A stretch of DNA of 39,548 nucleotides, taken from an uncultured Ruminiclostridium sp. GTDB taxonomy: Bacteria; Bacillota; Clostridia; Oscillospirales; Ruminococcaceae. The stretch spans positions 1 through 39,548 of the forward strand of contig CAJOMV010000043.1 of assembly GCA_905235805.1 (NCBI GenBank), read 5' to 3'. Within the stretch, counting starts at the first letter, position 1. Each line of letters starts with the position of its first letter. The notes beneath the pieces were generated by a model. The model saw nothing but the letters and a program-made list of their open reading frames with translations. It was not told the DNA's origin and did not search any database. Below, one piece after another: positions 5,715 through 33,279 of this stretch. A program made the translations under genes and the position numbers.

Positions 5715-6827
5715 TTACTTCTGCTGAAGTGCTTTTGTCTTTACGCGCTTCTCGGTCGTCTTGTCGAAGAGATATACGCTCTCATAGGGGATAGCGAACT
5801 CGAAGGACGAACCTACGCTCGGAGCCTGATGCGGGTCGAGCTTTAAGATAGTGTTATAGCCGTCGAAGTTCACATATACGTTGGTGCTGTCGCCGAGGAG
5901 CTCAACAAGGTTTACAAAGCACTTGATGATATAAGCGCTTCTCGCTACGCCGCCCTCGACAGGTCTCACGCACTCGGGACGGAAGCCGAAGACGATCTCG
6001 CCGCCCTCGTACTTATCGAGCACGTCCTGATCCGCTACCGCGCGGAGCTCTATCTGATTGTCGCTCAGCACGAGATTTCCCTTCTTGACCTTGCTCTCGA
6101 CGAAGTTCATCGGAGGCTCGCCGATAAATCCCGCAACAAACATATTGACTGGGTTGAAGTAGAGGTCATAGGGGGTGCCGACCTGCTGTACATAGCCGTC
6201 CTTCATGACAACTATCCTGTCAGCCATGGTCATAGCCTCGGTCTGGTCGTGCGTTACATAAATGGTGGTGGCACCGGTCTCACGGTGGATCTGCGTGATC
6301 TCGGAGCGCATCGTTACACGCTGCTTCGCGTCGAGGTTGGACAGCGGCTCGTCCATAAGGAATATGTCCACCTTGCGGATAATGGCGCGTCCCACCGCGA
6401 CTCTCTGTCTCTGACCGCCGGAGAGCTCTCTCGGAAGTCTCTCAAGGTAGTCGGTAAGACCGAGTATCTTTGCGGTCGAATTGACTCTCTGCTCTATAAC
6501 GTCATCGTCAACGCCCTGGAGCGTAAGTCCGAAGGCGAGGTTCTCATAGACCGTCATGTGCGGATAGAGCGCATAGCTCTGGAAAACCATCGCCACGCCG
6601 CGCTCACGGGGTCCCTTATCGTTCGCCTTTTCTCCGTCGATGTAGAACTCGCCCTTACTGATGTTCTCGAGACCCGCGATCATACGCAGGGTCGTGGATT
6701 TGCCGCAGCCCGAGGAGCCGACGAATACTATGAATTCGCCCTTTTCGATCTCGAGATTGAAGTCATGCACGGCATGGAAGCCGTTCGGGTAGATCTTGTT
6801 GATGCCTCGTAATGTTAAATAAGCCAT
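5715..6827 (-). CDS. msmX: MsmX/UgpC-type sugar ABC transporter ATPase (copy 1)
   Basis: Cytoplasmic ATPase subunit energising a carbohydrate ABC importer. It has Walker A GSSGCGKST (37-45), Q-loop in QSYALYPHMTVYEN, signature LSGGQ (135-139), Walker B FLMDE (156-160), the H-loop VTHDQTEA and the C-terminal MalK-type OB domain containing GEPPMNF. The 370-aa length with the ATG at 6827 is typical; an in-frame GTG at 6839 is possible, as neither start has an ideal ribosome binding site. It lies apart from the permeases, between kduI and uxaB. Bacillus MsmX serves several importers at once, so this copy might serve the transporter at 20.5-24.8 kb or others elsewhere. A second paralogue is at 18042-19103. 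Confidence 0.92.
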   Translation of the reverse strand: MAYLTLRGINKIYPNGFHAVHDFNLEIEKGEFIVFVGSSGCGKSTTLRMIAGLENISKGEFYIDGEKANDKGPRERGVAMVFQSYALYPHMTVYENLAFGLTLQGVDDDVIEQRVNSTAKILGLTDYLERLPRELSGGQRQRVAVGRAIIRKVDIFLMDEPLSNLDAKQRVTMRSEITQIHRETGATTIYVTHDQTEAMTMADRIVVMKDGYVQQVGTPYDLYFNPVNMFVAGFIGEPPMNFVESKVKKGNLVLSDNQIELRAVADQDVLDKYEGGEIVFGFRPECVRPVEGGVARSAYIIKCFVNLVELLGDSTNVYVNFDGYNTILKLDPHQAPSVGSSFEFAIPYESVYLFDKTTEKRVKTKALQQK

Positions 6828-6876
6828 AGCGCTGCCCACACTTTCATTCTGAATTTTCCCGCCTCGGGGATACCGG

Positions 6877-12551: not shown

Positions 12552-13952
12552 TCAGAAAAGCCTCTCCATAGGATAGAAGTCCTTCAGGTACTTCTCCGTG
12601 GCACCGACCATTTTCCTGAACAACGCGCGTCCGTCGCTCAACGAAAGCCCGCTGCACAGCGGCTGGTTGATGAACGCCTCGAAAATGCGGTCGAAGTCCC
12701 GCGCCTTTATGCCGTAGTATGTGTTCTCGATGTTGACGGCGTTACGGTACACAAGGGCATTCACGTCGGGCGGCAGGCGCTTCGACGTTACGGGCTTGAG
12801 GCTGTTCTGCGCAAATACGCAGTTCGTCTCCACCACCGACCCGAGAGGCAGATCGGGCATCTGCCCGACATTCACCACATTCGCGTTTGTGACCTTCGCG
12901 GGGATAAGTCCCAGCAGAGCCTTCATCATCTCTACCACTTCCTCGTCGCTGCGAGTGGGAACGACCTTTCCGCCGCCCTCCGCGATATAGCGGGAGAGCT
13001 CGATCTTCCCCGCCTGATCCTTTTTGCGGAAATCCACCGTAGTCAGGTGGTACAGCCAGCTCTCGGCGTCCGCCTTGTCCTTTATGTACCACGAATTGTT
13101 CATGAACTCGACAAGGTGCCTGTCCCCTGCCGCCGCGAGAACCCCGAAACGGCGGAACAGATCCATTTTTACCTTGTTCCCGTAAAGGAACGGGTCGTCC
13201 CGGAAGCCGTCCGGAGAAACTCCGACACGCTCGCAGTACCCGCTCTCATAGAATTTGTCAATGAAACGGGGCAGCAGTGCCAGCAGGTCTGTTCCCTTGC
13301 AGGTGGCTTCGGTTATCCAAGTGAAATGGTTCACACCGCAGGCGTCGATGATGATATCGCTCCTGTCGGGGCGTTCCGGGCACAATTCCTCCTGTGCCAC
13401 ACAGCACAGAAATTCCTGCGCGTGGAACACCTCATGGCAGCAGCCGAACGCCTTTATCTCCGGGAACACGTCGTACAGCGTCTTTGTGCAGGCTGTCATG
13501 GGGTTCGTGAGGTTTATCACCCACGCGTCGGGGCAGTGCGCCTTTATCTCGCGGGCAAAGCCCTCATATATCGGCACAGTGCGCATTGCGCGCAGTACTC
13601 CGCCGGGTCCCACAGTGTCGCCCACCGACTGGTATATCCCGTATTCCTCGGGGAGATGCACGTCCCCAGCCATTTCGTCGAAGGTGCCGGGAAGAATGGA
13701 GCATACCACGAAATCCGCCCCGTCGAGCGCCCCGCCGATACCGGGATATACCTTGTAATCCCACTTCGACACAGTCTCCGGAGCATCGTTTATCCGCTCA
13801 CCTATCCGCCTGTTTATCTCCGCCGCGGGGATATCTATGTCGTACAGCGCTATCTCGCCGCCAAGCCCCTCCGCGAGCGCAAGGTCGTTCATGAATACCC
13901 TCGCCCACATCTTCGAGCCGCCGCCGATGTACGCTATCTTTATCTTCTTCAT
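12552..13952 (-). CDS. lplD: GH4 alpha-galacturonidase (LplD type)
   Basis: An NAD- and metal-dependent glycoside hydrolase of family 4, 466 aa, cytoplasmic. The N-terminal Rossmann motif is IAYIGGGSKMW (6-16); NLTNP is at 147-151; the metal-site motif reads CHEV at 172-175, followed by GVNHFTW (206-212). CHEV is the reported hallmark of the GH4 alpha-galacturonidases, in contrast to other motifs in alpha-glucosidases and alpha-galactosidases. It should release galacturonate from the non-reducing end of short saturated oligogalacturonides, feeding UxaC. It begins 18 bp after the GH105 gene, with a weak AAGAAAG ribosome binding site, and is coupled to the AEC carrier downstream. No signal peptide. 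Confidence 0.92.
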   Translation of the reverse strand: MKKIKIAYIGGGSKMWARVFMNDLALAEGLGGEIALYDIDIPAAEINRRIGERINDAPETVSKWDYKVYPGIGGALDGADFVVCSILPGTFDEMAGDVHLPEEYGIYQSVGDTVGPGGVLRAMRTVPIYEGFAREIKAHCPDAWVINLTNPMTACTKTLYDVFPEIKAFGCCHEVFHAQEFLCCVAQEELCPERPDRSDIIIDACGVNHFTWITEATCKGTDLLALLPRFIDKFYESGYCERVGVSPDGFRDDPFLYGNKVKMDLFRRFGVLAAAGDRHLVEFMNNSWYIKDKADAESWLYHLTTVDFRKKDQAGKIELSRYIAEGGGKVVPTRSDEEVVEMMKALLGLIPAKVTNANVVNVGQMPDLPLGSVVETNCVFAQNSLKPVTSKRLPPDVNALVYRNAVNIENTYYGIKARDFDRIFEAFINQPLCSGLSLSDGRALFRKMVGATEKYLKDFYPMERLF

Positions 13953-13970: not shown

Positions 13971-15104
13971 TTACTGCGTTAGCATTCTCTTTACTTCCGT
14001 GTAGCACAGCACGAACGGTGCAACGCCCTTCGCGTCGTTCTCGACCACAGGCTCGGAGATGTAGTACTCATAGCTGCCGTCGCGGCGTTTGTCGCTCTCG
14101 GGACCAAGTCCCGCTACAAGGCATATCCCTCCGAGGTTCAGCTCGCCGTCATCGCTGCAGGTGAGGTACTTTTCACAAATGCCGTCAAAGGTCTTTCTGC
14201 CGAGCTGAGCGTAACGCTTGTCGAGCGCTCCGAGCCGTGCGCCCTTCATCATGGCATAGGCTATCATGCTGCTGCCGCTGGTCTCGAGGTAGTTGCCCTC
14301 TCTGCCGCCCTGATCCACGACCTGCCAGTACATACCGGTCTCCGGGTCGGCGTACTGCTCTACGCCCTCGATCACCTCACGGAACAGCCCCGTAAGCTCC
14401 TCCCTGTCGGCGTCGTTGTCGATATAGTCTATGATGTCAGCCAGCGCCACGGTGAACCAGCCAATGGCGCGGAGCCAGAAGTTCGCGGAACGCCCCGTCT
14501 CCTTATCAGCCCAGAATACGCTCTTTGAGCAGTCCACCCCATGGCAGAGCAGCTTCTTGTCCTCATCGAACATCAGCTTGCGCACATTGCGTATCTGCCC
14601 CATTGTGTCGGAGTAATCCCCGCCGCCGTATTCCTTCTGGAACCGCACATAGAACACCTGCGCCATATAGATGCCGTCCAGCCATATCTGGTGCGGGTAT
14701 ATCTTCTTGTGCCAGAAGTTGCCGGTAATGGTGCGGGGCTGCTTCTCGAGCTGCTCACGAAGCAGGAGTATGGCACTCTTGTACTTCTCCTGTCCCGTCA
14801 TCTTGTAGAGGTCGAACAGCACTCTGCCCTCGTTCACGTCGTCGAGGTTGAACTTCTCGATGTCATAGCCGCGGATACTGCCGTCATAGCTGACATAGTA
14901 ATTGATGAAGCTTTCGGCGAAATCCGAGTATTTCTTCTCACCGGTTATCTCCGCCGCCGACAGAAGCGCGGTTATCATGCACCCGTCTATGTAGTTCCAC
15001 TTCGGGGGCTTTCCGTGGCGTACATTCTCGATGTTCCAGAGCGGCGCCTCAGGCGTTGAGCCGTCAAGCAGACGGTCTATGAATTTTTCTATATTCTCGT
15101 ACAT
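13971..15104 (-). CDS. GH105 unsaturated galacturonyl/rhamnogalacturonyl hydrolase
   Basis: A (alpha/alpha)6-barrel hydrolase that removes the 4,5-unsaturated galacturonate left by pectate or rhamnogalacturonan lyases. At 377 aa it fits Bacillus YteR/YesR. The catalytic-site segment WHKKIYPHQIWLDGIYM places an Asp at residue 143, and NLDDVNEG has an Asp at 88; these agree with D143 and D88 of YteR. There is no signal peptide, so it acts on imported oligosaccharides, and the released unsaturated uronate goes to KduI. GGGAG five bases before the ATG gives a clear start, overlapping the end of the GH28 gene's last codons. Preference for rhamnogalacturonan versus homogalacturonan cannot be decided. 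Confidence 0.93.
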   Translation of the reverse strand: MYENIEKFIDRLLDGSTPEAPLWNIENVRHGKPPKWNYIDGCMITALLSAAEITGEKKYSDFAESFINYYVSYDGSIRGYDIEKFNLDDVNEGRVLFDLYKMTGQEKYKSAILLLREQLEKQPRTITGNFWHKKIYPHQIWLDGIYMAQVFYVRFQKEYGGGDYSDTMGQIRNVRKLMFDEDKKLLCHGVDCSKSVFWADKETGRSANFWLRAIGWFTVALADIIDYIDNDADREELTGLFREVIEGVEQYADPETGMYWQVVDQGGREGNYLETSGSSMIAYAMMKGARLGALDKRYAQLGRKTFDGICEKYLTCSDDGELNLGGICLVAGLGPESDKRRDGSYEYYISEPVVENDAKGVAPFVLCYTEVKRMLTQ

Positions 15105-15106
15105 AT

Positions 15107-16645
15107 TTACTCCCTTATCAGCTCGCCGACGTTGTTAGCCATGAGCTCATCTCCGTCGCAGCCCTCTACCCGCACATTCCGCACCGTGAGCTTTCCGACG
15201 TTGTCAAAATACATTCCCGCTCTGCGCAGCTTCACGTTGTTGTTCTTCATGGAGGGGTAGCCCTCTTCCGCGTTCGGGTCGTAGGTGAAGGTGACGTTCT
15301 CCAGCGTTATCTCCGCTATTGGCATTTCCGGCAGACCGTCACAGTAGCACGCGGCTACATGGCAATTGGTACATTCCATATCGCGGAAGGTGAATTTCCC
15401 GAGGTACGGGGTGCGGTCATCGACCGGCAGCTTCTCTCTCGTGGTGTTGTACTCCGAGTATCTGTCGGGGTCACAGCAGTTGTACCACATATTCATTACA
15501 ATGGGGGTCATTACTCCGTCCATTTTTACATTCTCAAATACCACGCCGTCGATCACCGCGAGCTTTCCGCGTCCGCGGCGGGTCTTTATGCGGATACCTC
15601 TGTCGGTGCGGTAGAACAGGCACCGCTCAACGGTCAGATCCCTTACTCCGCCCGCCATTTCGCTGCCCAGCGTCACAGCGCCGTGCCCGAACTGCATGAG
15701 ACAGTTGCGTATGGTGTGGCGGCTCGCGGGGGTCTTGTATTTCTGCGCAAGCTCTATCTTGCCCGACTTTATCGCGATGCAGTCATCTCCCACACTGAAG
15801 CGGCAGCCGATGATATTCACCTCGTCGCAGGCTTCGGGGTCGAGGGCATCGGTATTCGGGCTGTCCTTCGGGGCGTTCACCGCCAGGTCGAGGAAATCCA
15901 GCTTCTGCGAGAAATAGGGGTGGAGCTGCCATGACGCGGAATTCTGCGCCGTTATGCCGTGTACCGTGATATCCTTGCAGCGATTGAAGAATAGCAGTCT
16001 CGGGCGCGCGACCGTGTATTCCTTGACGTTCACCCACCAGTCGCTGTTCTGGGCGTTGCCGTCTATGACGCCCTTGCCGACTATCCGTATATCCTCCGCG
16101 TATTCCGCGAAAATGAGGGACTGATGCATCGGTACGGGATTGCCCTCCCATGCCCCCGTCTGCACAGCCTCGCCGGTGTTGATATCCGTCAGCTCGCCGG
16201 GTATCACAGGATAGCGGGTCTTGTCTGTGTTTCCGAGCAGCACCGCCTTCTCCGGGATATCCAGTGTGATGTGGCTCTTGAGCGCAAGGGGCGCGGTATA
16301 ATACACACCCTCGGGGAAATACAGTCTCCCGCCCGCGGGCAGGCAGTTTATCGCGGTCTGTATGCTCTGTGTGTCGTCCGTCACTCCGTCGCCCTTCGCG
16401 CCGAAGTCCTTCACGCTCACCGCGCAGGTCTCCGGCTTTGTCCGGAAGGTGACACTGCCGTATCCGGAGGCTTCCGCGGTATACTCCGTGTCGGGCTTCA
16501 GTCCGAACAGGGAGAACACGTTCGTATCAAGGTCAAGCTCCTTATCGCCGCATTTTACGCTGTAATGCCCGTCCGTGCGGTAAGCGAGCGTATTCTCAAG
16601 CTCGAAGCACGCGCTCACCGAGCCGATATATAACGTATTTATCAT
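15107..16645 (-). CDS. GH28 exo-polygalacturonase-like enzyme, intracellular
   Basis: Right-handed beta-helix pectinase. Numbered from the upstream ATG (16657), catalytic motifs are NTD (268-270), the Asp pair GDDCIAIKSG (290-299), GHGAVTLGSE (324-333) and RIK (356-358), so the site is complete. An N-terminal beta-rich extension (about 5-75, fibronectin III-like) precedes the KDFGAKGDGVTDDTQ segment. There is no signal peptide, in line with exo-acting cytoplasmic GH28s that trim imported oligogalacturonides. The internal ATG at 16645 is preferred: GGAG lies six bases before it, while the ATG at 16657 lacks a ribosome binding site. It is the first of three hydrolase genes in a row (GH28, GH105, GH4). 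Confidence 0.93.
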   Translation of the reverse strand: MINTLYIGSVSACFELENTLAYRTDGHYSVKCGDKELDLDTNVFSLFGLKPDTEYTAEASGYGSVTFRTKPETCAVSVKDFGAKGDGVTDDTQSIQTAINCLPAGGRLYFPEGVYYTAPLALKSHITLDIPEKAVLLGNTDKTRYPVIPGELTDINTGEAVQTGAWEGNPVPMHQSLIFAEYAEDIRIVGKGVIDGNAQNSDWWVNVKEYTVARPRLLFFNRCKDITVHGITAQNSASWQLHPYFSQKLDFLDLAVNAPKDSPNTDALDPEACDEVNIIGCRFSVGDDCIAIKSGKIELAQKYKTPASRHTIRNCLMQFGHGAVTLGSEMAGGVRDLTVERCLFYRTDRGIRIKTRRGRGKLAVIDGVVFENVKMDGVMTPIVMNMWYNCCDPDRYSEYNTTREKLPVDDRTPYLGKFTFRDMECTNCHVAACYCDGLPEMPIAEITLENVTFTYDPNAEEGYPSMKNNNVKLRRAGMYFDNVGKLTVRNVRVEGCDGDELMANNVGELIRE

Positions 16646-16673
16646 ATTTTTCTCCATTTTTATGTCGCCGTTC

Positions 16674-17318
16674 TTATTTCTTCATGCCGGAGGCTTTTGC
16701 CTTTGTTCCCGCGTCACGAAAAATGCTTATGAAGGTATTTTTTATCAGTATCAGCAGCATATCGAACCCTAAATACAGCAGTCCGAATATGACAGGCTCA
16801 ACGCCGAGCATCGACTCCTCCTGTGCGGCGTCCACGTTCGGGTCAACTCCCATGAGCATATTGATGGCATAGTACGTTCTGAACACGCAGTACAGCAGCA
16901 CACCCGCGTACAGCACATTCAGGAATACAGACCAGAACTGCCGCGCCGTCACCATCATCCACTTGTCGTGTGCTCCCGGCTCCGGCTCGAAGTTCCGCAG
17001 CGTCCTGTTCACGAGTATGTCCGTGACGACTCCGAGACCTATCGCGAGCACGACCAGCAGGTCGATGCCCTGGAGGTATATCCCCAGTCCCCACAGAAAA
17101 AAATAGCAGACCGCACCGGCAAACCAAAATTTCACAAACACGATCTTCAGCCACGTCGGGATATGGAGCTTCTTCTTTGACGTGTACTTCTTTATCTCCT
17201 TATCGGAGACCTCGGGCGCGTCCTTGGCATTCACCAGGCGGTCGACGGCGTCGGTCTTCAGATCATAATAGCTTGCAGCCGATCTGTCTTCTTCTGTTTT
17301 CTGCTTTTTGTCAGCCAT
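16674..17318 (-). CDS. Tetraspan membrane protein of unknown function (214 aa)
   Basis: I do not recognise a characterised family. A hydrophilic, charged N-terminus (1-55, containing YYDLKTDAVDRLVNAKDAPEVSDKE without its last residues) precedes four hydrophobic segments at about 57-82, 84-103, 130-152 and 174-196, and a basic tail. It is the last of four small four-helix membrane proteins placed around the MsmX-like ATPase (16674-20215) and immediately precedes the GH28 gene. A strong hairpin lies just upstream (17344-17381). The conserved-looking cytoplasmic N-terminus could dock to a soluble partner; a role in transporter assembly or energising is inference only. Confidence 0.75.
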   Translation of the reverse strand: MADKKQKTEEDRSAASYYDLKTDAVDRLVNAKDAPEVSDKEIKKYTSKKKLHIPTWLKIVFVKFWFAGAVCYFFLWGLGIYLQGIDLLVVLAIGLGVVTDILVNRTLRNFEPEPGAHDKWMMVTARQFWSVFLNVLYAGVLLYCVFRTYYAINMLMGVDPNVDAAQEESMLGVEPVIFGLLYLGFDMLLILIKNTFISIFRDAGTKAKASGMKK

Positions 17319-17343
17319 TTTTCCAATCTCTTATCTGTACAGT

Positions 17344-17381
17344 AAAACCGCAGGACAGCAGGGACGCCTGCTGCCCTGCGG
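17344..17381 (-). terminator. Strong hairpin with short T run, internal terminator or attenuator
   Basis: CCGCAGG and CAGCAGG pair with CCTGCTG and CCTGCGG around a CGTC loop, one mismatch, followed by TTTTA on the minus strand. A smaller CAGTG-GGA-CACTG stem lies just before it (17395-17420). The next gene starts only 26 bp later with no visible promoter, so partial read-through is likely. Confidence 0.65.
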
Positions 17382-17444
17382 CTTTCTCGCGATCCTTACA
17401 GTGGGACACTGTGAGGGAGCCTTATTCCGATAAGCAGCCTGTTA

Positions 17445-18026
17445 TCAGTCCTCATCATCGGAGATGTCGATAGCTTCCATATTCTCGTTGCCCTCGACCT
17501 CGATAGATGTGTTGATCTTTCTGATCAGCTTAGCATAGACCGGCAGAAGTGCGAGCAGCACCGCGGTTATGATGACGAACACGATGTGCAGTGTCACAAC
17601 GGCCTGTGCCGTGCTTATGTACACCGTCTCATTCGTCACGGCTATCGGATTGTCGGCACGGGTCAGCGCGCTTGTGATGCGGGACAAATATACCACGTCC
17701 ACGAATATCAGCAGCGCCAGCATACCGAACAGCAGTCCCAGCATTATCTTGTTTGCGGGCTTGCGCTTGGGGAAGGTCCTGAGAAATACCACAAACGCGA
17801 GTATCGAGAACAGCATCGCGACGAACTCGCACTGTCCCATATTCGCGCCGTTTATCTTCGCCGTCGTATTCGCTATCGACGAAAGGTTCAGCGAAAAGAT
17901 AAGGAACGCCACCACGAGAAATACCAGAGAGATGTTCTGCGGCGAACGCTTCAGCGAGACCAATGACTTACGAATGACCTCTTTGATACCGCGGCCTTGC
18001 TTTTTCGCGGTTTTCTGATCTGCCAT
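17445..18026 (-). CDS. Tetraspan membrane protein of unknown function (193 aa)
   Basis: Not recognised. The N-terminus (1-29) is strongly basic; four hydrophobic segments follow at about 31-52, 63-82, 93-115 and 137-166; the C-terminus (167-193) is acidic, ending in a run of Asp and Glu. A loop of about 20 residues between helices three and four (TSALTRADNPIAVTNETVY) probably faces outside. AGGAGG lies at a good distance before the ATG. It directly follows the MsmX-like gene (15 bp gap), so both are likely on one transcript and may work together. The opposite charges at its two cytoplasmic ends suggest protein-protein contacts. Confidence 0.75.
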   Translation of the reverse strand: MADQKTAKKQGRGIKEVIRKSLVSLKRSPQNISLVFLVVAFLIFSLNLSSIANTTAKINGANMGQCEFVAMLFSILAFVVFLRTFPKRKPANKIMLGLLFGMLALLIFVDVVYLSRITSALTRADNPIAVTNETVYISTAQAVVTLHIVFVIITAVLLALLPVYAKLIRKINTSIEVEGNENMEAIDISDDED

Positions 18027-18041
18027 CTGCAGTTTCCTCCT

Positions 18042-19103
18042 TTACGCTCTGATAGCGTTTGTTGTTTCCTTGTCGAAGAAATGCTTCTTGTTGAAGGATA
18101 CCTGCACCGTGTCGCCGTACTTGTAATTGCACCAGTCGCGGAATTTGCAGGTTATCTTGTGCTTGCCGACCGTACCGTTGACGAGAGTGTTCTGTCCGAG
18201 GTTCTCGTTCGAGATGACATCGACATTTATCGTGCCGCCCGGAACGACGTTCTCGGGACGGACTCCGAGGGTCACGGTCTTACCCTCATACTCTGTGAGG
18301 ATCTCCTTCTCGGCTGATGTAAGGTCAAGGGTGAACTCGGCGCATACAGCCTGACCGTTCTTTATCTCCACATCAAACAGGTTCATGGGCGGCAGTCCTA
18401 TGAAGCCGGCGACGAACAGGTTCGCGGGGGTGTCGTAAAGCTCGAGGGGAGTACCTATCTGCTGCACATGACCCATGGACATACATACTATCCTGTCAGC
18501 GAGGGTAAGAGCCTCGGTCTGGTCGTGGGTGACATACAGTATCGTGGCGTTGAGGCGCTTGTGGAGCAGCAGTATCTCGCGGCGGGTGGAGCTTCGCAGC
18601 TTCGCGTCGAGATTCGAGAGCGGCTCATCGAACAGGAACACCTTCGGGGTACGCACGATAGCGCGTCCCATGGCGACTCTCTGCCTCTGACCGCCCGAGA
18701 GCTGCGCCGGCTTCTTGTTGAGCTGGGTCGTCAGGTCGAGTATCTCGGCTGCCGCCATTACCTTCTGATGTATCTCGTTCTTGTTCTCCTTGCGGAGCAT
18801 GAGCGAGAACGCCATATTCTCATATACCGTCATGTGACCGTACAGCGCGTAGTTCTGGAACACCATCGCGATATCGCGGTCCTTCGGCGGCATCTGTGTG
18901 ACGTCATTCCCGTCGATTATCAGGTTGCCGGCGGTGATATCCTCAAGTCCCGCGACCATGCGCAGCGTTGTTGACTTTCCGCAGCCCGACGGACCTACAA
19001 GAACTATGAGCTCACCGTCCTTGACATTGAGGTTGAAATCATAGACTGCCTGCACCTTGTTGTCGTAGATCTTTTCAAGATGCTGTAATTTAAGATCACT
19101 CAT
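18042..19103 (-). CDS. msmX: MsmX/UgpC-type sugar ABC transporter ATPase (copy 2)
   Basis: ATPase subunit for carbohydrate import, 353 aa. Walker A GPSGCGKST (37-45), Q-loop in QNYALYGHMTVYEN, signature LSGGQ (135-139), Walker B FLFDE, H-loop THDQTEA, and a shorter C-terminal regulatory domain with GLPPMNLF. AGAGGA precedes the ATG at good spacing. It lies inside the block of four unknown membrane proteins, downstream of the binding protein and permease genes, so it is the most likely energiser of that importer. It differs clearly from copy 1 (for example YGHM versus YPHM in the Q-loop region), so the two are paralogues, not a recent duplication. Confidence 0.92.
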   Translation of the reverse strand: MSDLKLQHLEKIYDNKVQAVYDFNLNVKDGELIVLVGPSGCGKSTTLRMVAGLEDITAGNLIIDGNDVTQMPPKDRDIAMVFQNYALYGHMTVYENMAFSLMLRKENKNEIHQKVMAAAEILDLTTQLNKKPAQLSGGQRQRVAMGRAIVRTPKVFLFDEPLSNLDAKLRSSTRREILLLHKRLNATILYVTHDQTEALTLADRIVCMSMGHVQQIGTPLELYDTPANLFVAGFIGLPPMNLFDVEIKNGQAVCAEFTLDLTSAEKEILTEYEGKTVTLGVRPENVVPGGTINVDVISNENLGQNTLVNGTVGKHKITCKFRDWCNYKYGDTVQVSFNKKHFFDKETTNAIRA

Positions 19104-19116
19104 CTTTTATATCCTC

Positions 19117-19617
19117 TTATTGCTTCTGCTTTTTATCGAGCTCTGCCTGGTAATTGTTAAGAGTAGTGGTTTTCATTATGCCTACGATGCCTGCCGCAAC
19201 GAGCAGCACCGCGGAAACGCACAGACATACCGAGACGTATGTGAACTGGTCGTCCCCCATGACCATAGTCCCCTCCGCGCCGACCACTGTATTCGGGGTC
19301 TCATGGGCTTCGCGGGGAATGTAGAATATGCGCGCTATCTGCAATATACCCAGCACTATCGAGACATAAGCGTAGTTCATCTTGTAGTTCTTCACGCCCT
19401 CGGAGGAGAGGAACGCCAGCAGCATGAACACGAGGTTATATACGACGGAAGCGCCGATGAATATCTTATAGTAGTAGCTGCCCGCGTCCGTTCTGTAAAT
19501 GCTCACGAAGTAGAGCGCGTTCGCCACTATCGCCAGCAGTATCAGATTTGCGGACATCTTGTTCTTTGTAAAGCGAAGGCGATCCTTCTTTATCAATGCG
19601 TCCTTATTTTCCGCCAT
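19117..19617 (-). CDS. Tetraspan membrane protein of unknown function (166 aa)
   Basis: Not recognised. A charged N-terminus (about 20 residues) is followed by four hydrophobic segments (about 22-40, 52-71, 81-100 and 127-148) and a short charged tail rich in Lys and Gln. An external loop of about 25 residues lies between helices three and four. The ATG at 19617 is preferred to an upstream GTG at 19626, since AAGGG is eight bases before it and the preceding gene's TGA ends one base away. Tight coupling with its neighbour (19619-20215) suggests the two form a complex. It is followed after 13 bp by the MsmX-like ATPase gene. Confidence 0.75.
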   Translation of the reverse strand: MAENKDALIKKDRLRFTKNKMSANLILLAIVANALYFVSIYRTDAGSYYYKIFIGASVVYNLVFMLLAFLSSEGVKNYKMNYAYVSIVLGILQIARIFYIPREAHETPNTVVGAEGTMVMGDDQFTYVSVCLCVSAVLLVAAGIVGIMKTTTLNNYQAELDKKQKQ

Positions 19618-19618
19618 A

Positions 19619-20215
19619 TCACTCACCCTTTCCGCTTCCGATAGCCTTCCGCTCCGCCTTCATCACGGCGTTCTTAAAGAACACGTTGGCGACCAGCAGG
19701 CACGCGGTCACTATCAGCAGACCGAACACCCAGAAGCATATATCGAAGAAGAATGTCTCGTCGGGACCTATGTAGAGCGTTCCCCAGTCCTTCGAGAATG
19801 CCGCGAGCTCCTCGAAATTCACGTTATTCCGGAACTGCTGCTTGTAGGAGATTATCTGCGGTATGCACCAGATCGAAACGGCGAGCTGCGCACACGCAAC
19901 GAGTCCCGTAGCAATGTAGTTGCCGATGTAGTACTTGCGGCGTGAGTGTGTGTTGGTGAAGAACAGCGCGAGCGTTATGACGATCAGCACTATGCTTGCC
20001 TTGGTGAAATCGGAATTGAAGGTGAACATATCATAGTACACTCTCGAGCCGGTGACCGAGGAATAATCGAGGTCATAGTCCGGGTAGAGTATCGTCTTGG
20101 AAAGCGCGTCATACAGGTCGGTGGAAAGACCGAGCGAGCAGACGAACACAAGCGCCGCAATTATCAGAGCCGCCATACATATGATCTTCTGAAATATCAT
20201 TTGTTTCTTGTACAT
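19619..20215 (-). CDS. Tetraspan membrane protein of unknown function (198 aa)
   Basis: Not recognised. Four hydrophobic segments at about 9-30, 70-88, 97-120 and 155-178. The loop between helices one and two (about 31-69) is long and rich in Tyr and Asp, and that between three and four (121-154) is aromatic and acidic; both should be extracytoplasmic. The tail is basic and cytoplasmic. AAGGAAGG precedes the ATG. It is the first of the four tetraspan genes after the solute-binding protein, from which it is separated by a 265-bp gap with a palindromic element and a hairpin. The aromatic outer loops would suit contact with sugar or binding protein; this is inference. Confidence 0.75.
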   Translation of the reverse strand: MYKKQMIFQKIICMAALIIAALVFVCSLGLSTDLYDALSKTILYPDYDLDYSSVTGSRVYYDMFTFNSDFTKASIVLIVITLALFFTNTHSRRKYYIGNYIATGLVACAQLAVSIWCIPQIISYKQQFRNNVNFEELAAFSKDWGTLYIGPDETFFFDICFWVFGLLIVTACLLVANVFFKNAVMKAERKAIGSGKGE

Positions 20216-20260
20216 AAGGACCTTCCTTTGTTATGGAATGGGACCGGGGGACTTGCTTAT

Positions 20261-20395
20261 TTTATTACCCCACCAATTAATTCTTTTCTCACAGTCACGA
20301 CACCTGCCATGGCAAAGCCGCATTGCTGTGACTTTGCCGGACCGGTATCGTTCAGAGGACAAGAATTATAAAGAGTTAATTGGTGGAGCAATAAA
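20261..20395 (+). repeat. MITE-like palindromic element (135 bp)
   Basis: The two ends are inverted copies of a 26-bp sequence matching in 23 positions (20261-20286 and 20370-20395; core CCACCAATTAA). An inner inverted repeat GGCAAAG (20311-20317) and CTTTGCC (20332-20338) makes the whole segment foldable into one long interrupted hairpin. It has no coding potential and sits in the gap after the solute-binding protein gene. Size and terminal inverted repeats suggest a miniature inverted-repeat element, but no target duplication is obvious. Confidence 0.5.
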
Positions 20396-20408
20396 TATCC
20401 GCTTTTCG

Positions 20409-20444
20409 CACCGCATATCCCGGCTTTTGCCGGGATACACGGTG
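20409..20444 (-). terminator. Stable stem-loop after the solute-binding protein gene
   Basis: CACCG plus TATCCCGGC pairs with GCCGGGATA plus CGGTG around a four-base loop, with a two-base internal mismatch. It lies 37 bp past the binding protein stop. No T run follows on the minus strand, so it probably protects the upstream mRNA's 3' end and only partly stops transcription, a common way to make more binding protein than downstream products. Confidence 0.55.
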
Positions 20445-20480
20445 CAGCGGACACTGCCGTCAGTCGTTTACGCGGACTGA

Positions 20481-22736
20481 TCAGCCGTTGATGGTGTTGT
20501 AGAATGTCTTGAGTCTGTGCCAAGCTTCATTTCTTCTTGCAAGATATGTCGAGCAGCCCCAACCGCCGTCTGCAACTGCCTTTGTGATAGTGTCGGCTGT
20601 TGTTGCGGCATCTGCGCCTGTCTCGCCTGTGAAGCCCTTGGTGATGATATCAACGAACAGGTTGACCTGCTTCTTGGCGGAGCCGAAGCTTCCGGAAGCG
20701 CTCAGGTTTGTGAGCTCGTTGATAGCGTTTGTCTCAGCGACCTCCTGCGGAAGAACCGTAGGAACGGAGGTGTACCAGGAGTTGGAAGCAAGTGCGAGCT
20801 CGGGGTGCTTGATAGTGCCGAGAGCGATAGCTGTGGAGATGTGGCCTGCGCCTTCCTTACCTACTTCGTGTGTGCACTGATACTCAAATGCCTGGCTCTT
20901 TACGAAGCTGAGGGTCGAACCGATGTAGTTACGCGCGTAGTTGGTGTAGTTACCGTTGGACTTGGACCAGAGCTCTTCATAAGTAGCGTCTGCGATAACG
21001 GGCCACTGCTCGCCGTTGAAATCGAATGTCTCATAGTTGCCGGAAGCGTCCTGCTTGATGAACGCGGAAGGACCATAGGACATGAGGATCATGCCTTCCT
21101 TGCTGTATGCGTAGTCGATGAGCTTGAGAGCAGCGTTGAGCTTGTTTGTGTCGGAGCCTACGCCTGCAGCGGAGATTCCCCAACCGTCTGTCTTGACGGA
21201 ACGCCAGGACTCTGTAAATCTCATGTACTTCTCTTCGCCGTCATTCCAGCGGGATACAGGCACCATAACTGCCATGTACTTCTCGCCGTCTTCGTTCTGA
21301 AGTGCTGTTGCGTTGTAAGCTGTCTGTGTCTGGTTGTAGTCATAGTGCATGAAGCCGTTGTCGTCGGAGAGGTACTTTTCGGTGTTAACGTCCTCTTCGT
21401 TTACGAACGCGCTGGAGATGAGACCTTCCTTGACCATGTCGTTCATCTTTGCGAGTGCTTCGTATGTAGCTGTCTCTGTTCTTGCGTCATGGAGCTCGCC
21501 GTCTGTGCCTACATAGAGGTAATCAAGTCTGGACTCCATACCGCGGATACCGAAGAGAGTACCTGCGAAACGGAACATATCAACACGTCTCTGGTTGTTG
21601 GAATCCTCGCGGGAGTGGAGACCCTGAACAGAGTCAGTACCGTTGAGTGTCTGGGGGTTAGCAACTACGCAGCGGAGGAGAGCAACGAGCTCGTCAACGT
21701 CCCAAGCCGCGTTCTGACCGATGAAGAGGTCTGCGCGGTTCTCACCGTAGTAGCCGTTATAGGTCTTGTCGATGTATTCACGGAGCATGTTGACTGCTGT
21801 AACGCCGTCAACGGAGCCTGCCGCGTTCATCTTATCAACGATGTTGCCGTAAGCGTCGTAGTCCTTGCTGATGGTCTCAACTGCGGAGCCGTCCTTCTTG
21901 ACTACTTCAACGTCGATCTTGCCGGAGGTGGGCATAAAGGGTGTGTAAGCGGGTGTTGCTGTGTTGTTGCTCTTGTCGGCTGCGAATTCGCCGGAGCCGT
22001 TGAGGAGCTTCTCTACCCAGTCGGTTCTCATAAGGGGCATACGCTCGATATCGTTGACACCGTCGAAGTAAGGCGAGAAGTAGATAGCGCCGGAGTTCGG
22101 ACCTGCCGCAGCGCCTGTGATGGAGAGACGAACGATGGGGTTAGCCTCGAGATAAGCCTTGAAGTTAGGCATTTCGTTGAGGTGCTCCGCGAGGTTGATG
22201 AGCTTGCCCTTCTGACCGTTCTCGGAAAGGAGTGTAGCTGTACCGCTGAGCATATCGACCTGATCGAGCTGAGCGTCCCAGTACTGGTACTCATCGGAAG
22301 CGGAGTTGCCCTGGTATTTGTCTTCGATCTTGATGTCGAGGATGGACTGAACTGCCTGCCATGTGGGCTTGAAATCACCGGAGTTGTAGGTGTTGCCGTC
22401 CGCGAGTGTTACGCCTTCGCCTGCGAGGTCTGCGGTGAAGCGCATACCTGTCTTGTCGTTGTTGTAGCCGCAAGCCATACGGAGAACCGTGCCGCTGTCA
22501 TAGGTGAGTGCCGCAGCCTCGATGATCTCCTCCGGAATGGTGCCTGTGGTTGTCTCTGCCGCAGGAGCTGTTGTGGTATCGCCGCCGCCTGCCGGAGCAG
22601 CCGTCGTGGTAGTAGTGCCTGCGTTGTCGTTGCTGCTCGAACCGCCGTCTGTGCTTGTGGTGCCGCAGCCGGACAGTACCGATGTAACTGCGAGAGCCGC
22701 GGTCAGCAGCATTGCTGTGATTCTTGACTTCTTCAT
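20481..22736 (-). CDS. Lipoprotein solute-binding protein of a carbohydrate ABC importer
   Basis: Captures oligosaccharide outside the cell and delivers it to the permeases. The signal peptide (1-23) ends in the lipobox LSGC, so C24 should be lipidated; residues 25-65 are a low-complexity Thr/Gly/Ala linker. The rest resembles the large extracellular solute-binding proteins paired with LplB/LplC-type permeases (Bacillus YtcQ, LplA), but at 751 aa it is some 200-250 residues longer. AAAGGAGG precedes the ATG. Gene order after the two permeases and before the pectin hydrolases indicates oligogalacturonides as ligands. The extra length may carry an additional domain; none is recognised. Confidence 0.9.
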   Translation of the reverse strand: MKKSRITAMLLTAALAVTSVLSGCGTTSTDGGSSSNDNAGTTTTTAAPAGGGDTTTAPAAETTTGTIPEEIIEAAALTYDSGTVLRMACGYNNDKTGMRFTADLAGEGVTLADGNTYNSGDFKPTWQAVQSILDIKIEDKYQGNSASDEYQYWDAQLDQVDMLSGTATLLSENGQKGKLINLAEHLNEMPNFKAYLEANPIVRLSITGAAAGPNSGAIYFSPYFDGVNDIERMPLMRTDWVEKLLNGSGEFAADKSNNTATPAYTPFMPTSGKIDVEVVKKDGSAVETISKDYDAYGNIVDKMNAAGSVDGVTAVNMLREYIDKTYNGYYGENRADLFIGQNAAWDVDELVALLRCVVANPQTLNGTDSVQGLHSREDSNNQRRVDMFRFAGTLFGIRGMESRLDYLYVGTDGELHDARTETATYEALAKMNDMVKEGLISSAFVNEEDVNTEKYLSDDNGFMHYDYNQTQTAYNATALQNEDGEKYMAVMVPVSRWNDGEEKYMRFTESWRSVKTDGWGISAAGVGSDTNKLNAALKLIDYAYSKEGMILMSYGPSAFIKQDASGNYETFDFNGEQWPVIADATYEELWSKSNGNYTNYARNYIGSTLSFVKSQAFEYQCTHEVGKEGAGHISTAIALGTIKHPELALASNSWYTSVPTVLPQEVAETNAINELTNLSASGSFGSAKKQVNLFVDIITKGFTGETGADAATTADTITKAVADGGWGCSTYLARRNEAWHRLKTFYNTING

Positions 22737-24854: not shown

Positions 24855-25463
24855 TCAGTCATTCTCTCCGTATTCGGTATCGCCGTAATCGGGTATCTGC
24901 TCTTTATTGCGTTCAGCCTGTGTGCGGAGCAGGTATGCGACCTGGTCCTCGAACAGTCCGTCTATCCTTCTCGCCAGCAGCACCGTCACTATCGAGAACA
25001 CCAGTGACAACGAGTCGGTCGCGACCAGTCTCACGATATCTCCGAAGCCGCCCCCGAAGGCAAATCCCACTGCCCAGCGTCCGAGCTGCACCCCGCAGAA
25101 CGCGGTGACCACGAACAGCACCGTCAGCGGTATCTTCGACCGTATCTTTTCCTTTTCCCACGCTCTGAACAGGAGCAGCGCCAGCAGCCCGAAGCAGTTT
25201 CCGACGCAGTATATCACATACTGCTCTGCGCTCGCCCCGGACACTACGCACAGCGCAAGACCGCCGCCGACCGCATGGACCGCGGCATACGCACCCCACC
25301 GCATCATCACGATGCACACCACAGCCGTCATGGGCGACAATATGTATGCTTCCGCCGGGAACCAGACTCTTGCGGCGATATTTATAAGCACCTCCGCACC
25401 CACAAGCATAGCCAGTAAGATGCAAAGGTCGATATTTCTGTATTGTTTCAGCGACAGATTCAT
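24855..25463 (-). CDS. Polytopic membrane protein, possibly ECF S-component-like
   Basis: A 202-aa protein with about six hydrophobic segments (roughly 12-32, 38-54, 57-77, 82-100, 110-130, 143-165) and a hydrophilic C-terminal tail (170-202) rich in Glu, Asn and Asp. Size, topology and the short basic N-terminus resemble substrate-binding S components of energy-coupling factor transporters or small regulatory membrane proteins; no diagnostic motif was found, so the function is open. AGAGGA lies nine bases before the ATG. It is the first gene after the 417-bp control region and leads the permease, binding protein and hydrolase genes, so it belongs to the pectin transporter operon. Confidence 0.7.
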   Translation of the reverse strand: MNLSLKQYRNIDLCILLAMLVGAEVLINIAARVWFPAEAYILSPMTAVVCIVMMRWGAYAAVHAVGGGLALCVVSGASAEQYVIYCVGNCFGLLALLLFRAWEKEKIRSKIPLTVLFVVTAFCGVQLGRWAVGFAFGGGFGDIVRLVATDSLSLVFSIVTVLLARRIDGLFEDQVAYLLRTQAERNKEQIPDYGDTEYGEND

Positions 25464-30746: not shown

Positions 30747-31160
30747 TCAGGGCTCCGCCGAGGCTTTTTTCATTTTCCCCGCCATGACTGCCTGTGATAT
30801 GACGGCAGCGGCGATGAGCACCGCGGTAACTATGGGGTATATACCGAGCAGACGGTTTTCGGTGCCGTATATCTCCACAACGCCCGCAGCCAGTGAACCG
30901 AGCGCCGCCGTGACTGCCGCCGAGTTCAGCAGATTGAGGAATGCCCTTGCCGCCTGCGCCCTTCTCATATACATTATAAGGTATACGATACCCGCCGCAA
31001 GCGGGAACACGAAGGCATATATCATGAAATACGAGAACACCCCGAAGCTGAACGCTTCGTATATCGCCCCGAACACGATACAGAACACGGCAAACATGAT
31101 ATTGCCGAGGGAATGGCGCAAAAGCCGCCTGTTTTCATTATCAGTAGCCGATGTAAACAA
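30747..31160 (-). CDS. Small four-helix membrane protein
   Basis: A 137-aa integral membrane protein with four hydrophobic segments at about 18-38, 43-63, 78-97 and 105-127, a polar N-terminus and a short basic tail. Not recognised. It starts at TTG (31160), supported by AGGTGA six bases upstream; both lie inside the end of the preceding glycosyltransferase-glycosidase gene, with a 20-bp overlap, so translation is coupled and the two products probably act together at the membrane. Gene end 30747 lies about 35 bp above the phosphatase fusion's promoter, with no terminator seen between them. Confidence 0.7.
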   Translation of the reverse strand: MFTSATDNENRRLLRHSLGNIMFAVFCIVFGAIYEAFSFGVFSYFMIYAFVFPLAAGIVYLIMYMRRAQAARAFLNLLNSAAVTAALGSLAAGVVEIYGTENRLLGIYPIVTAVLIAAAVISQAVMAGKMKKASAEP

Positions 31161-33279
31161 TGTCGCTCACCTTTCTTTCCTTTATGCTGCTGCCGTTGGT
31201 GGTGGGATTATTGATGACCTGTCCGCCGAACCACATGGTGGAGGAGCCGCCGCCGTCGAGGTTGTACGCTGTCCCGACGCCGAGCCTCTGCATAAACTCC
31301 GCCAGCTCCTTCAGGGAAAGCCCCTCGCTCTCGGAGGTCCTGCCGTCGGACACTACGAACACATAATGGAGGTCGTCTATGATGCCGACGGCGGTGCGGG
31401 GATTGCTTGCCATAGCCCTGCCGGCCTCGTCGTTTGCGCCCACGCTTACCGAGCCGTCCTCAACGAGCGCGGGACCGAAGGAGAACGCCTGCCATACCCC
31501 CTCGTCAACAAGCTGCTGCGCGGTCTTTTCGGAGCTGTTCGTTACAGCGAAATGCCCGTCGGCATAGATGCAGAGAACATCGGTGTCTGCGGAGCCGTAG
31601 TCCCGGTAAACAATGCCGTTCCGTATCACATACCCGCTCTCCTTTGCCCCGTAGTAGTCGCCGTTGACCGCGAACAGAGCGTTTTTGGACTCCGCGATAT
31701 CCGAGGTCTCGTCGGTAATATTCTTGCCGTAGGTATCCTTCGCGAAGGCGGTCTTGAGGTACTGCGCCGAGGACAGTGTCACGTCAGCGACGTATATTTT
31801 TGTGTCGTTCTCGTAATATTCGCTAAGCGTTATACCGATATTTTCATCGCTGTACGAGCTCCCCGTCTCCGCTGCCGCAGCAGTGCCCGCAGTGCTCTGC
31901 GACGCTTCCGTTTCCGACGTGGTATCGGACTGCGAGCCCGTACTCCTGCCGGAGCCGGAGGGCTTTTTGCGTTTTTTCTTGGTCTCGGTGACCGCGGTAT
32001 CGGGAGCGGAAGTGTTATCCCCTGTCTCCCGCGTCTCCGCCGCTTCGGTGTCTGCGGTATCTGCCGATACACCGGAGGTCTCCTCCGCGAACATAGCCGT
32101 GTTCATCTGCGCCGCGTCGGCGGAAACGGCTGTCGGTATTATAAAGGTATCGAGCATGACATAGCCCGTGAACAATACGACAGCAGAGCCGTACAGCGCT
32201 GCCCACAGATATCTGTGCTTCATTTTCATCAGTCCTTTCAATGCTTCGGTCTTGTCATTGTCCGAAAAAACGGCTGTACGCTGGACAGCCCAGCTCACAA
32301 TGAACATGACCGCCTCGGTCAGTATCTTTGCCGCGTAGGCGTTTATCCCCATGGCGGTGAGCATGGTCAGCAGCGTGGTATTGCAGGCAAGAATGAACAC
32401 CGCGAGCATGATATACTTTGCCGCGGACTGCTTCACCGAGCTCCTGCCGCCGAACACGAGCCGCCTGTTTATCTCGAAATTGAGGGTGCCGCTGAATATC
32501 CTCGCCGCTATGTTCGCAAGCACAGGTATACCGGTGAGCGCGGAGAGAACGCAGAAGAGCAGATAATCCACCCCGAAGCTGATGAGCGACGACGCGGAGA
32601 ACTTCAGTATCTCTCTGTAAATACGGCAGGAATCCTTCACGGTGTCGAAATGCGAGCTTTCGTTTTTACCGATATAAATGGTCTGTATCGGCACCTGCAA
32701 TATCCGCGCGCCGGTCTTTGCGTACTCCATGAGCACGTTCATCTCGTACTCGTACCTGTCGCCGGGGATATTGACCATTCTGCCCGTATGCCTGTGTGAG
32801 AATGCCCGCAGCCCTGTCTGCGTGTCCGCGAGAGCCTTTCCGCAGGTCAGCGCGAAAACTATGCCGGTAATGCCGTTCCCCAGCCTGCTCCGCAGCGGCA
32901 CATTGCCCTTGAAGGTGCGGCAGCCGATGACAACGGCATCCTCGTCCCCGGCAGCTCTTTCGCATACTCTCACCGCGTCCTCCGGGCTGTGCTGACCGTC
33001 AGCGTCCAGCGTCACCACGACGTAGGGCTCGTGGAAGGTGTTCATTATATAGCAAAGCCCCGTTTTCAGAGCGCAGCCCTTTCCGCAGTTTACCGTGTGC
33101 TCCAGCACTGCCGCGTATTCCGCAGCCTCGGCAAATATCTCCCGGTATGCCTCACCGCTCCCGTCATTCACGACAACCACAGCAAACCCGCGCTCTTTAA
33201 GCACCCTGACCAGCGCAGTCAGGCGGCTGTCGGGCTGATATGCCGGGATAAGCGCTATCCTCAGTGTTTCGTTCGACAT
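31141..33279 (-). CDS. GT2 glycosyltransferase-GtrA-phosphodiester glycosidase fusion
   Basis: Four parts in 712 aa. Residues 6-225 are a DPM1-like family 2 glycosyltransferase (VVVVNDGSG at 34-42, DAD at 92-94). Residues 229-340 are a GtrA-type four-helix membrane domain, thought to help move polyprenyl-linked sugars. A further helix (357-378) leads to a low-complexity Ser/Thr/Ala linker (380-475). Residues 480-712 are a NAGPA-like phosphodiester glycosidase/exopolysaccharide domain (NGDYYG 539-544, NPRTAVG 626-632, NLDGGGSST 673-681), expected outside the cell. The protein could make a lipid-linked sugar, flip it and process a sugar phosphodiester outside. AAAGGAG eight bases before the ATG supports the start. 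All motifs are intact. Confidence 0.88.
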   Translation of the reverse strand: MSNETLRIALIPAYQPDSRLTALVRVLKERGFAVVVVNDGSGEAYREIFAEAAEYAAVLEHTVNCGKGCALKTGLCYIMNTFHEPYVVVTLDADGQHSPEDAVRVCERAAGDEDAVVIGCRTFKGNVPLRSRLGNGITGIVFALTCGKALADTQTGLRAFSHRHTGRMVNIPGDRYEYEMNVLMEYAKTGARILQVPIQTIYIGKNESSHFDTVKDSCRIYREILKFSASSLISFGVDYLLFCVLSALTGIPVLANIAARIFSGTLNFEINRRLVFGGRSSVKQSAAKYIMLAVFILACNTTLLTMLTAMGINAYAAKILTEAVMFIVSWAVQRTAVFSDNDKTEALKGLMKMKHRYLWAALYGSAVVLFTGYVMLDTFIIPTAVSADAAQMNTAMFAEETSGVSADTADTEAAETRETGDNTSAPDTAVTETKKKRKKPSGSGRSTGSQSDTTSETEASQSTAGTAAAAETGSSYSDENIGITLSEYYENDTKIYVADVTLSSAQYLKTAFAKDTYGKNITDETSDIAESKNALFAVNGDYYGAKESGYVIRNGIVYRDYGSADTDVLCIYADGHFAVTNSSEKTAQQLVDEGVWQAFSFGPALVEDGSVSVGANDEAGRAMASNPRTAVGIIDDLHYVFVVSDGRTSESEGLSLKELAEFMQRLGVGTAYNLDGGGSSTMWFGGQVINNPTTNGSSIKERKVSDIVYIGY

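Follow-up and report, generated by a model that had tools for sequence, protein, structure and literature searches.

Four tetraspan membrane proteins, an S-component-fold protein and two dedicated ATPases co-inherited with a sugar ABC importer core in a pectin utilisation cluster

Introduction

Why should a sugar importer locus carry four small membrane proteins of no known family, wrapped around an ATPase gene? ABC importers of this class usually consist of a binding protein, two permeases and one type of ATPase, which is possibly shared among importers. The question was raised by a stretch of DNA of 39,548 nucleotides from an uncultured Ruminiclostridium sp. (contig CAJOMV010000043.1), which was analysed as a whole and is referred to as the window. 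The original prediction placed four four-helix proteins, here named A to D, around an MsmX-like ATPase (ATP1) between the gene of a solute-binding protein (SBP) and those of pectin hydrolases. This arrangement (A-B-ATP1-C-D) was confirmed by the open reading frames and by a hydropathy scan. Here, the proteins of the locus, their conservation in related genomes and the possible functions of the unit are described.

Results

Organisation of the locus

The region is a pectin and galacturonate utilisation cluster (Table 1). The order of transcription on the minus strand is T, PermF, PermG, SBP, a 265-base spacer, A, B, ATP1, C, D and GH28. The latter is followed by a GH88/GH105-type hydrolase, which we take to be GH105, by GH4 and by a carrier of the Mem_trans family (PF03547). 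Farther downstream, the window encodes a short-chain dehydrogenase (presumably KduD-like), a KDPG-aldolase-family protein, a PfkB kinase, a sugar-isomerase-like TIM barrel and KduI. ATP2 comes next, and then a mannitol-dehydrogenase-family protein, an altronate dehydratase and UxaC. A FAD oxidoreductase, an AraC-type regulator and a pectinesterase are encoded ahead of T. The exact roles of all these enzymes in pectin and galacturonate use are assumed here. From their N-termini, judged by eye, the hydrolases appear to be cytoplasmic.

The genes around ATP1 are tightly spaced in the window, with gaps of 1 nt (A-B), 13 nt (B-ATP1), 15 nt (ATP1-C), 126 nt (C-D) and 16 nt (D-GH28). For B, the start given in the list of open reading frames is an upstream GTG at 19626, resulting in a protein of 169 aa. 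Elsewhere in the window (31141-33279, minus strand), a protein of 712 aa displays glycosyltransferase family 2, GtrA membrane and phosphodiester glycosidase (NAGPA) domains, a combination which was judged unusual.

Table 1. Features of the locus and their positions in the window.
Feature	Description	Position	Strand	Evidence
T	membrane protein of 202 aa with the fold of ECF S-components; the unit starts with its gene	24855..25463	-	
PermF	ABC permease with EAA loop	23737..24801	-	BPD_transp_1, 7.6e-8
PermG	ABC permease with EAA loop	22828..23724	-	BPD_transp_1, 6.7e-13
SBP	751 aa binding lipoprotein, AlgQ-like	20481..22736	-	AlgQ1 profile match, 3e-9
SBP-A spacer	very stable stem-loops	20216..20480	-	folding z-scores
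A	198 aa tetraspan, no known family	19619..20215	-	
B	166 aa tetraspan, no known family; ATG start at 19617	19117..19617	-	
ATP1	MalK/MsmX-type ATPase, 353 aa, dedicated to the module	18042..19103	-	own clade, support 0.95
C	193 aa tetraspan, no known family; model is a four-helix bundle	17445..18026	-	
D	214 aa tetraspan, charged N-terminal tail, no known family	16674..17318	-	
GH28	polygalacturonase-type hydrolase	15107..16657	-	Pfam GH28, 8.7e-36
GH88/GH105	unsaturated uronyl hydrolase	13971..15104	-	Pfam Glyco_hydro_88, 9e-86
GH4	GH4 hydrolase	12552..13952	-	Pfam Glyco_hydro_4, 1.3e-47
ATP2	second MalK/MsmX-type ATPase	5715..6839	-	Pfam ABC_tran and OB_MalK; own clade, support 1.0

The importer core

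PermF, PermG, SBP and the two ATPases display the features of a CUT1 importer, namely two BPD_transp_1 permeases with EAA loops, an OB-domain MalK-type ATPase and a binding lipoprotein. Among the matches listed, the EAA motif was present in 37 of 38 PermF and 38 of 40 PermG sequences (45 and 46 were examined, respectively). In SBP, Cys24 was invariant in 16 sequences. SBP matched no Pfam family, the solute-binding families included. Its profile matched the alginate-binding proteins AlgQ1 and AlgQ2 (3e-9 to 1.2e-8) and, more weakly (4.5e-6), other solute-binding proteins, which we take to be the glycosaminoglycan-binding Smon0123. Because of these matches, a uronate oligosaccharide would be in keeping as the ligand of SBP. 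In the more distant genome G773, SBP (L107 7771-10665, minus strand) has 964 aa and is about 210 residues longer than that of the window.

A folding z-score of -10.75 was obtained against dinucleotide shuffles for positions 20216-20500, which cover the spacer between SBP and A together with 20 bases of SBP. Of 49 corresponding spacers of relatives, 48 had z-scores below -3, here against mononucleotide shuffles. Such a stable spacer would fit a production of SBP in excess over A to D. It forms two stem-loops, the second of which is bounded by an inverted repeat in the manner of a small mobile element; the stretch 20260-20400, however, occurs once in this genome.

The tetraspan proteins A to D

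Four helices were obtained for each of A to D in the hydropathy scan, two overlapping calls in D being taken as one. The counterparts in relatives are approximately 39-86% identical to the proteins of the window. None of the four matched a family of Pfam or NCBIfam at the known-family cut-off, no signalling or enzymatic domain was recognised in them, and nothing was found against the ABC permease family up to an E-value of 1. Searches for relatives of A to D and T among known families and PDB sequences yielded scattered weak matches only. Diverged membership in DUF624/YesL (PF04854) was rejected for A to D, with a profile similarity probability of 2.4% at most, and likewise for T. The five proteins were also rejected as detectable paralogues of one another (2.6% at most in all ten pairs). 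The original prediction knew of no function for A to D, and clear homology of the four to known, unrelated functions would have spoken against it; family, profile and PDB-sequence searches revealed no such homology.

Weak matches of C to many large multi-TM families were obtained, for instance to DUF6057 in 31 of 58 members (best 3.5e-5) and to HisKA_7TM in 16 (best 6.7e-5). Since the matched families are unrelated, these matches are read as an effect of composition. Structure comparison of the C model gave only a generic four-helix fold. In G170 (L088 9406-10356, plus strand), the open reading frame of C is preceded by an extension of about 135 residues resembling a multi-helix membrane domain, and this longer C is perhaps a fusion with another tetraspan protein. 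The N-terminus of D (window 17318-17160, minus strand) aligned with the SinI helical motif at E-values of 0.085 and 0.18, the sole two matches to PDB sequences. This likeness was rejected as evidence, being too weak to use; the charged tail of D is possibly a dimerisation helix, or the match to SinI a product of chance.

T, a protein with the S-component fold

The AF2 model of T had a pLDDT of 90.7. In comparison with known structures (Foldseek, VIA-align), the best 19 matches were all ECF S-components and the six-helix S-component fold was found; the Foldseek E-values are weak when taken alone (0.07 to 0.34), though the probability was 0.97 to 1.00. The conserved AXXXA motif, by which S-components dock to EcfT, was absent from helix 1 of T, with Ala21 in 25 and Ala25 in 24 of 52 sequences, and no pair of alanines four apart was kept among these sequences. 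The Pfam S-component family PF12822 was not among the families listed for the 46 members scanned, and no EcfT or EcfA partner was detected among the 30 window proteins scanned. The C-terminal helix of T is charged and conserved. Thus T, which is encoded beside CUT1-type permeases, differs from the S-components of ECF transporters (ThiT, RibU, PanT and others) and from MreD by lacking a Pfam match, the AXXXA motif and an EcfT in the window. Use of the S-component fold by sensor kinases (5TMR) and by MreD is described in an earlier study (PMC11109136).

Two dedicated ATPases

ATP1 scored above the cut-off of the NCBIfam UgpC subfamily (460 against 432 bits). The 72 ATPase entries placed in a tree, 65 of them distinct, comprised 30 ATP1, 25 ATP2 and 17 other sequences, and both ATP1 and ATP2 formed clades of their own. 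The others include an MsmX-like clade which is also present in genomes without C (G005, G014). In all 12 module genomes examined, a second MsmX-like gene was located on the contig of the module, at a distance of about 1-13 kb. Orthologues of ATP2 with at least 77% identity were identified in all nine C-bearing genomes out of 60 relatives, and none was found in the other 51 among the candidates scored (33 or fewer per genome). The next-best matches came from module-free genomes: fragments with 64% (G004) and 62% (G006) identity over 170-215 residues, which were excluded from the orthologue count, and the rest with 58% or less. When seven further module genomes were included, C and ATP2 occurred together in 16 of 16 genomes, or in 16 of 17 with the partial copy of G145. 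They lie on separate contigs in three of the 16 (G007, G016 and G035; the ATP2 match of G007 contains one internal stop). ATP2 was also found inside the module, namely in L089, where three bases separate it from the preceding D, behind D in L056 and behind GH4 in L075. In five loci named as Lachnospiraceae (L045, L056, L064, L075 and L079), D is succeeded by genes other than GH28 and GH105, and a second MsmX-like ATPase is encoded within about 3.5 kb downstream of D.

Walker A, Q-loop, signature, Walker B and H-loop are intact in both ATPases. A degenerate nucleotide site was searched for in each of them and none was seen. The position after the Q-loop is occupied by Gly in most ATP1 sequences and by Pro in the other ATPases. 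The residues differing between ATP1 and ATP2 did not map clearly to an interface.

Conservation and distribution of the module

Sixty loci were found with the C profile in the named collection, mostly from uncultured Ruminococcaceae and Oscillospiraceae and some from Lachnospiraceae, with Ruminococcus albus 8 as the one named strain. Adjacency was counted only in loci having both members of a pair. It was complete for T-PermF (45/45), PermF-PermG (45/45), A-B (56/56), B-ATP1 (56/56), ATP1-C (59/59) and C-D (57/57), and reached 45/46 for PermG-SBP and 51/52 for SBP-A. Both exceptions correspond to a gene split into two open reading frames, one of a permease and one of a binding protein. Members are missing from 17 loci; on the incomplete side of each, no more than 321 bases separate the last gene found from the end of the contig. 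The median gaps across the loci were -4 (A-B), -4 (B-ATP1) and 14 bases (ATP1-C). With this order retained in every relative that has both neighbours, the A-B-ATP1-C-D arrangement is not due to chance. The gene after D is more variable: GH28 in 48 loci, GH4 in three, and AEC, GH105 and a second ATPase in one each, while the contig ends there in six.

The order of the module was kept in four genomes of another family. It was also kept, from T through PermF, PermG, SBP, A, B, ATP1, C and D to GH28 and GH105, in G773, which belongs to the same class and to another order. There, A, B and C were matched at E-values of 6e-27 to 6e-33, and the identity is 35% for T and 39% for C. The linkage of A to D with sugar ABC genes, whose absence would have told against the original prediction, was retained in the loci surveyed, other family and order included.

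The module is rare. Counting the genome of the window itself, C was detected in nine of 60 relatives and in nine of 297 genomes of the order; across the phylum, one of 299 genomes had it, and this was the window's own copy. B was present in eight of the 297 genomes, all eight among the nine with C. In the class, T was found in two of 243 and D in four of 393 genomes. The absence of C from 51 of the 60 relatives of the window's genus suggests that the transport route of the module is optional. G145 harbours C and D, neighboured by GH28 and an SBP-like open reading frame at the start of a contig of 4.3 kb; its match to C has two stops at the N-terminal edge, and orthologues of B, ATP1 and ATP2 were not found in this genome. 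In G035, where the module is spread over short contigs, C, D, ATP2 and a fragment of B were present and T gave no match. No match to A-D or T was obtained in two other sugar ABC stretches of the genome of the window (L104, L105).

Discussion

A candidate multi-subunit importer

An AlgQ-like lipoprotein, two EAA permeases, two MalK-type ATPases, A to D and T are co-inherited beside pectin hydrolases and genes of galacturonate catabolism. The cluster probably serves the uptake of pectin pieces by gut and rumen bacteria. The accessory module for oligogalacturonide uptake put forward in the original prediction is the best-supported reading; it was incomplete, as T with its S-component fold and ATP2 also appear to belong to the unit. 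We consider the chances about even that the products form one multi-subunit importer for pectic (galacturonate) oligosaccharides, in which A to D and T would be auxiliary subunits and ATP1 and ATP2 the motors, perhaps as a heterodimer.

In such an importer, the SBP lipoprotein would capture oligogalacturonides and pass them to PermF and PermG. ATP1 and ATP2 would dock on the two different EAA loops and power transport, perhaps as a heterodimer. Both most likely serve PermF and PermG, because the EAA loops are the only recognised MalK-type docking sites of the cluster, and the joint retention of two dedicated paralogues would be accounted for by an ATP1:ATP2 heterodimer. A to D and T would surround the permease core, where they may stabilise it, shape the path of the acidic chain, or keep the binding protein or the cytoplasmic hydrolases near. 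T would act outside an ECF system as a scaffold or receptor, like its fold in MreD and 5TMR kinases. The imported oligogalacturonides would then be cut inside the cell by the hydrolases. A bolder version, in which a CUT1 core, an ATP1:ATP2 motor, an S-component-fold subunit and four tetraspans (ten proteins with the lipoprotein) would make up a new ABC importer architecture importing long pectin chains, is tentative and rather doubtful.

The main rival, akin to the second membrane complex with the same ATPase that the original prediction gave as its other option, is less likely than an accessory module and in itself unlikely. One permease pair is accompanied by two dedicated ATPases, which could serve two machines: PermF, PermG and SBP would be powered by ATP2 or by an MsmX-like ATPase shared with other importers (a further MsmX-like clade is present in these genomes), and A to D, with or without T, would build with ATP1 a novel type of membrane complex apart from the importer. 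The invariable place of ATP1 between B (56/56 loci) and C (59/59 loci) would fit such a complex. However, A to D have no ABC permease match at cut-off, whereas PermF and PermG have conserved EAA loops, and ATP1 keeps the MalK-type Q-loop region, save for Gly instead of Pro in most sequences. Moreover, A to D without PermF and PermG were found only at contig ends and in the partial copy of G145.

A shared function without a complex can likewise lie behind co-inheritance in one cluster. In another reading, A to D and T would be helpers and not subunits, that is, assembly factors, sensors, or anchors of the importer to the envelope, the hydrolases or a regulator. T lends itself to such a role by its fold, which also occurs in sensor kinases and MreD (PMC11109136), by its lack of a conserved AXXXA, by its conserved charged C-terminal helix and by the AraC-type regulator two genes upstream. 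The translationally close spacing from A to C suggests, on the contrary, subunits which are made together, and neither A to D nor T has a recognisable signalling or enzymatic domain, so that helpers seem improbable. Mere co-inheritance in a pectin cluster, with functions of A to D unrelated to transport, would agree with the presence or absence of the whole cluster as one block across genomes but is very improbable, as A to D remain with ATP1 while the genes after D vary.

Comparison with known systems

DUF624/YesL proteins (PF04854) are small membrane proteins which accompany sugar ABC genes. They show no profile similarity to A-D or T, and the own DUF624 protein of this genome is encoded on another contig. 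ATP1 resembles the multitask MsmX ATPases in its UgpC/MsmX sequence, and its gene adjoins C in all 59 loci having both. The alginate importer AlgM1M2SS of Sphingomonas sp. A1 is related by its binding proteins, as the profile of the window SBP matches AlgQ1 and AlgQ2 (3e-9 and 7e-9). We take its name to stand for two permeases and, in the SS, one type of ATPase. Together with AlgQ1/AlgQ2, this system takes up an acidic polymer of uronates into the cytoplasm; the sections of the source that describe it, unlike the situation here, name neither tetraspans nor a protein with the S-component fold (PMC9314435). YtcQP-YteP and YesOPQ of Bacillus subtilis, both energised by MsmX and implicated in the uptake of galacturonate oligomers, are likewise sugar importers of type I, in which one binding protein is combined with two permeases (PMC5730181). 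In the corresponding sections of that paper, they share the single ATPase MsmX and no extra membrane subunits are named, whereas in the present locus two ATPases are dedicated to the unit and five further membrane proteins are encoded. A description of proteins like A-D or T was not found in searches of open-access papers (PMC). The CUT1 core is of a known kind, and the surrounding proteins are undescribed as far as could be seen from this literature.

Significance

Scattered pectin degraders of the gut and rumen keep one permease pair together with two ATPases dedicated to it and five membrane proteins beyond the usual set. For these five proteins, no relative reached the cut-off in any family library searched. 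If all of them form one complex, it would represent a sugar ABC importer furnished with a full complement of auxiliary subunits, and the S-component fold would be used outside vitamin uptake, sensing and cell shape. Such a complex might also explain how long acidic oligosaccharides enter Gram-positive bacteria. The co-inherited extra proteins hint at an importer of greater complexity than the textbook type.
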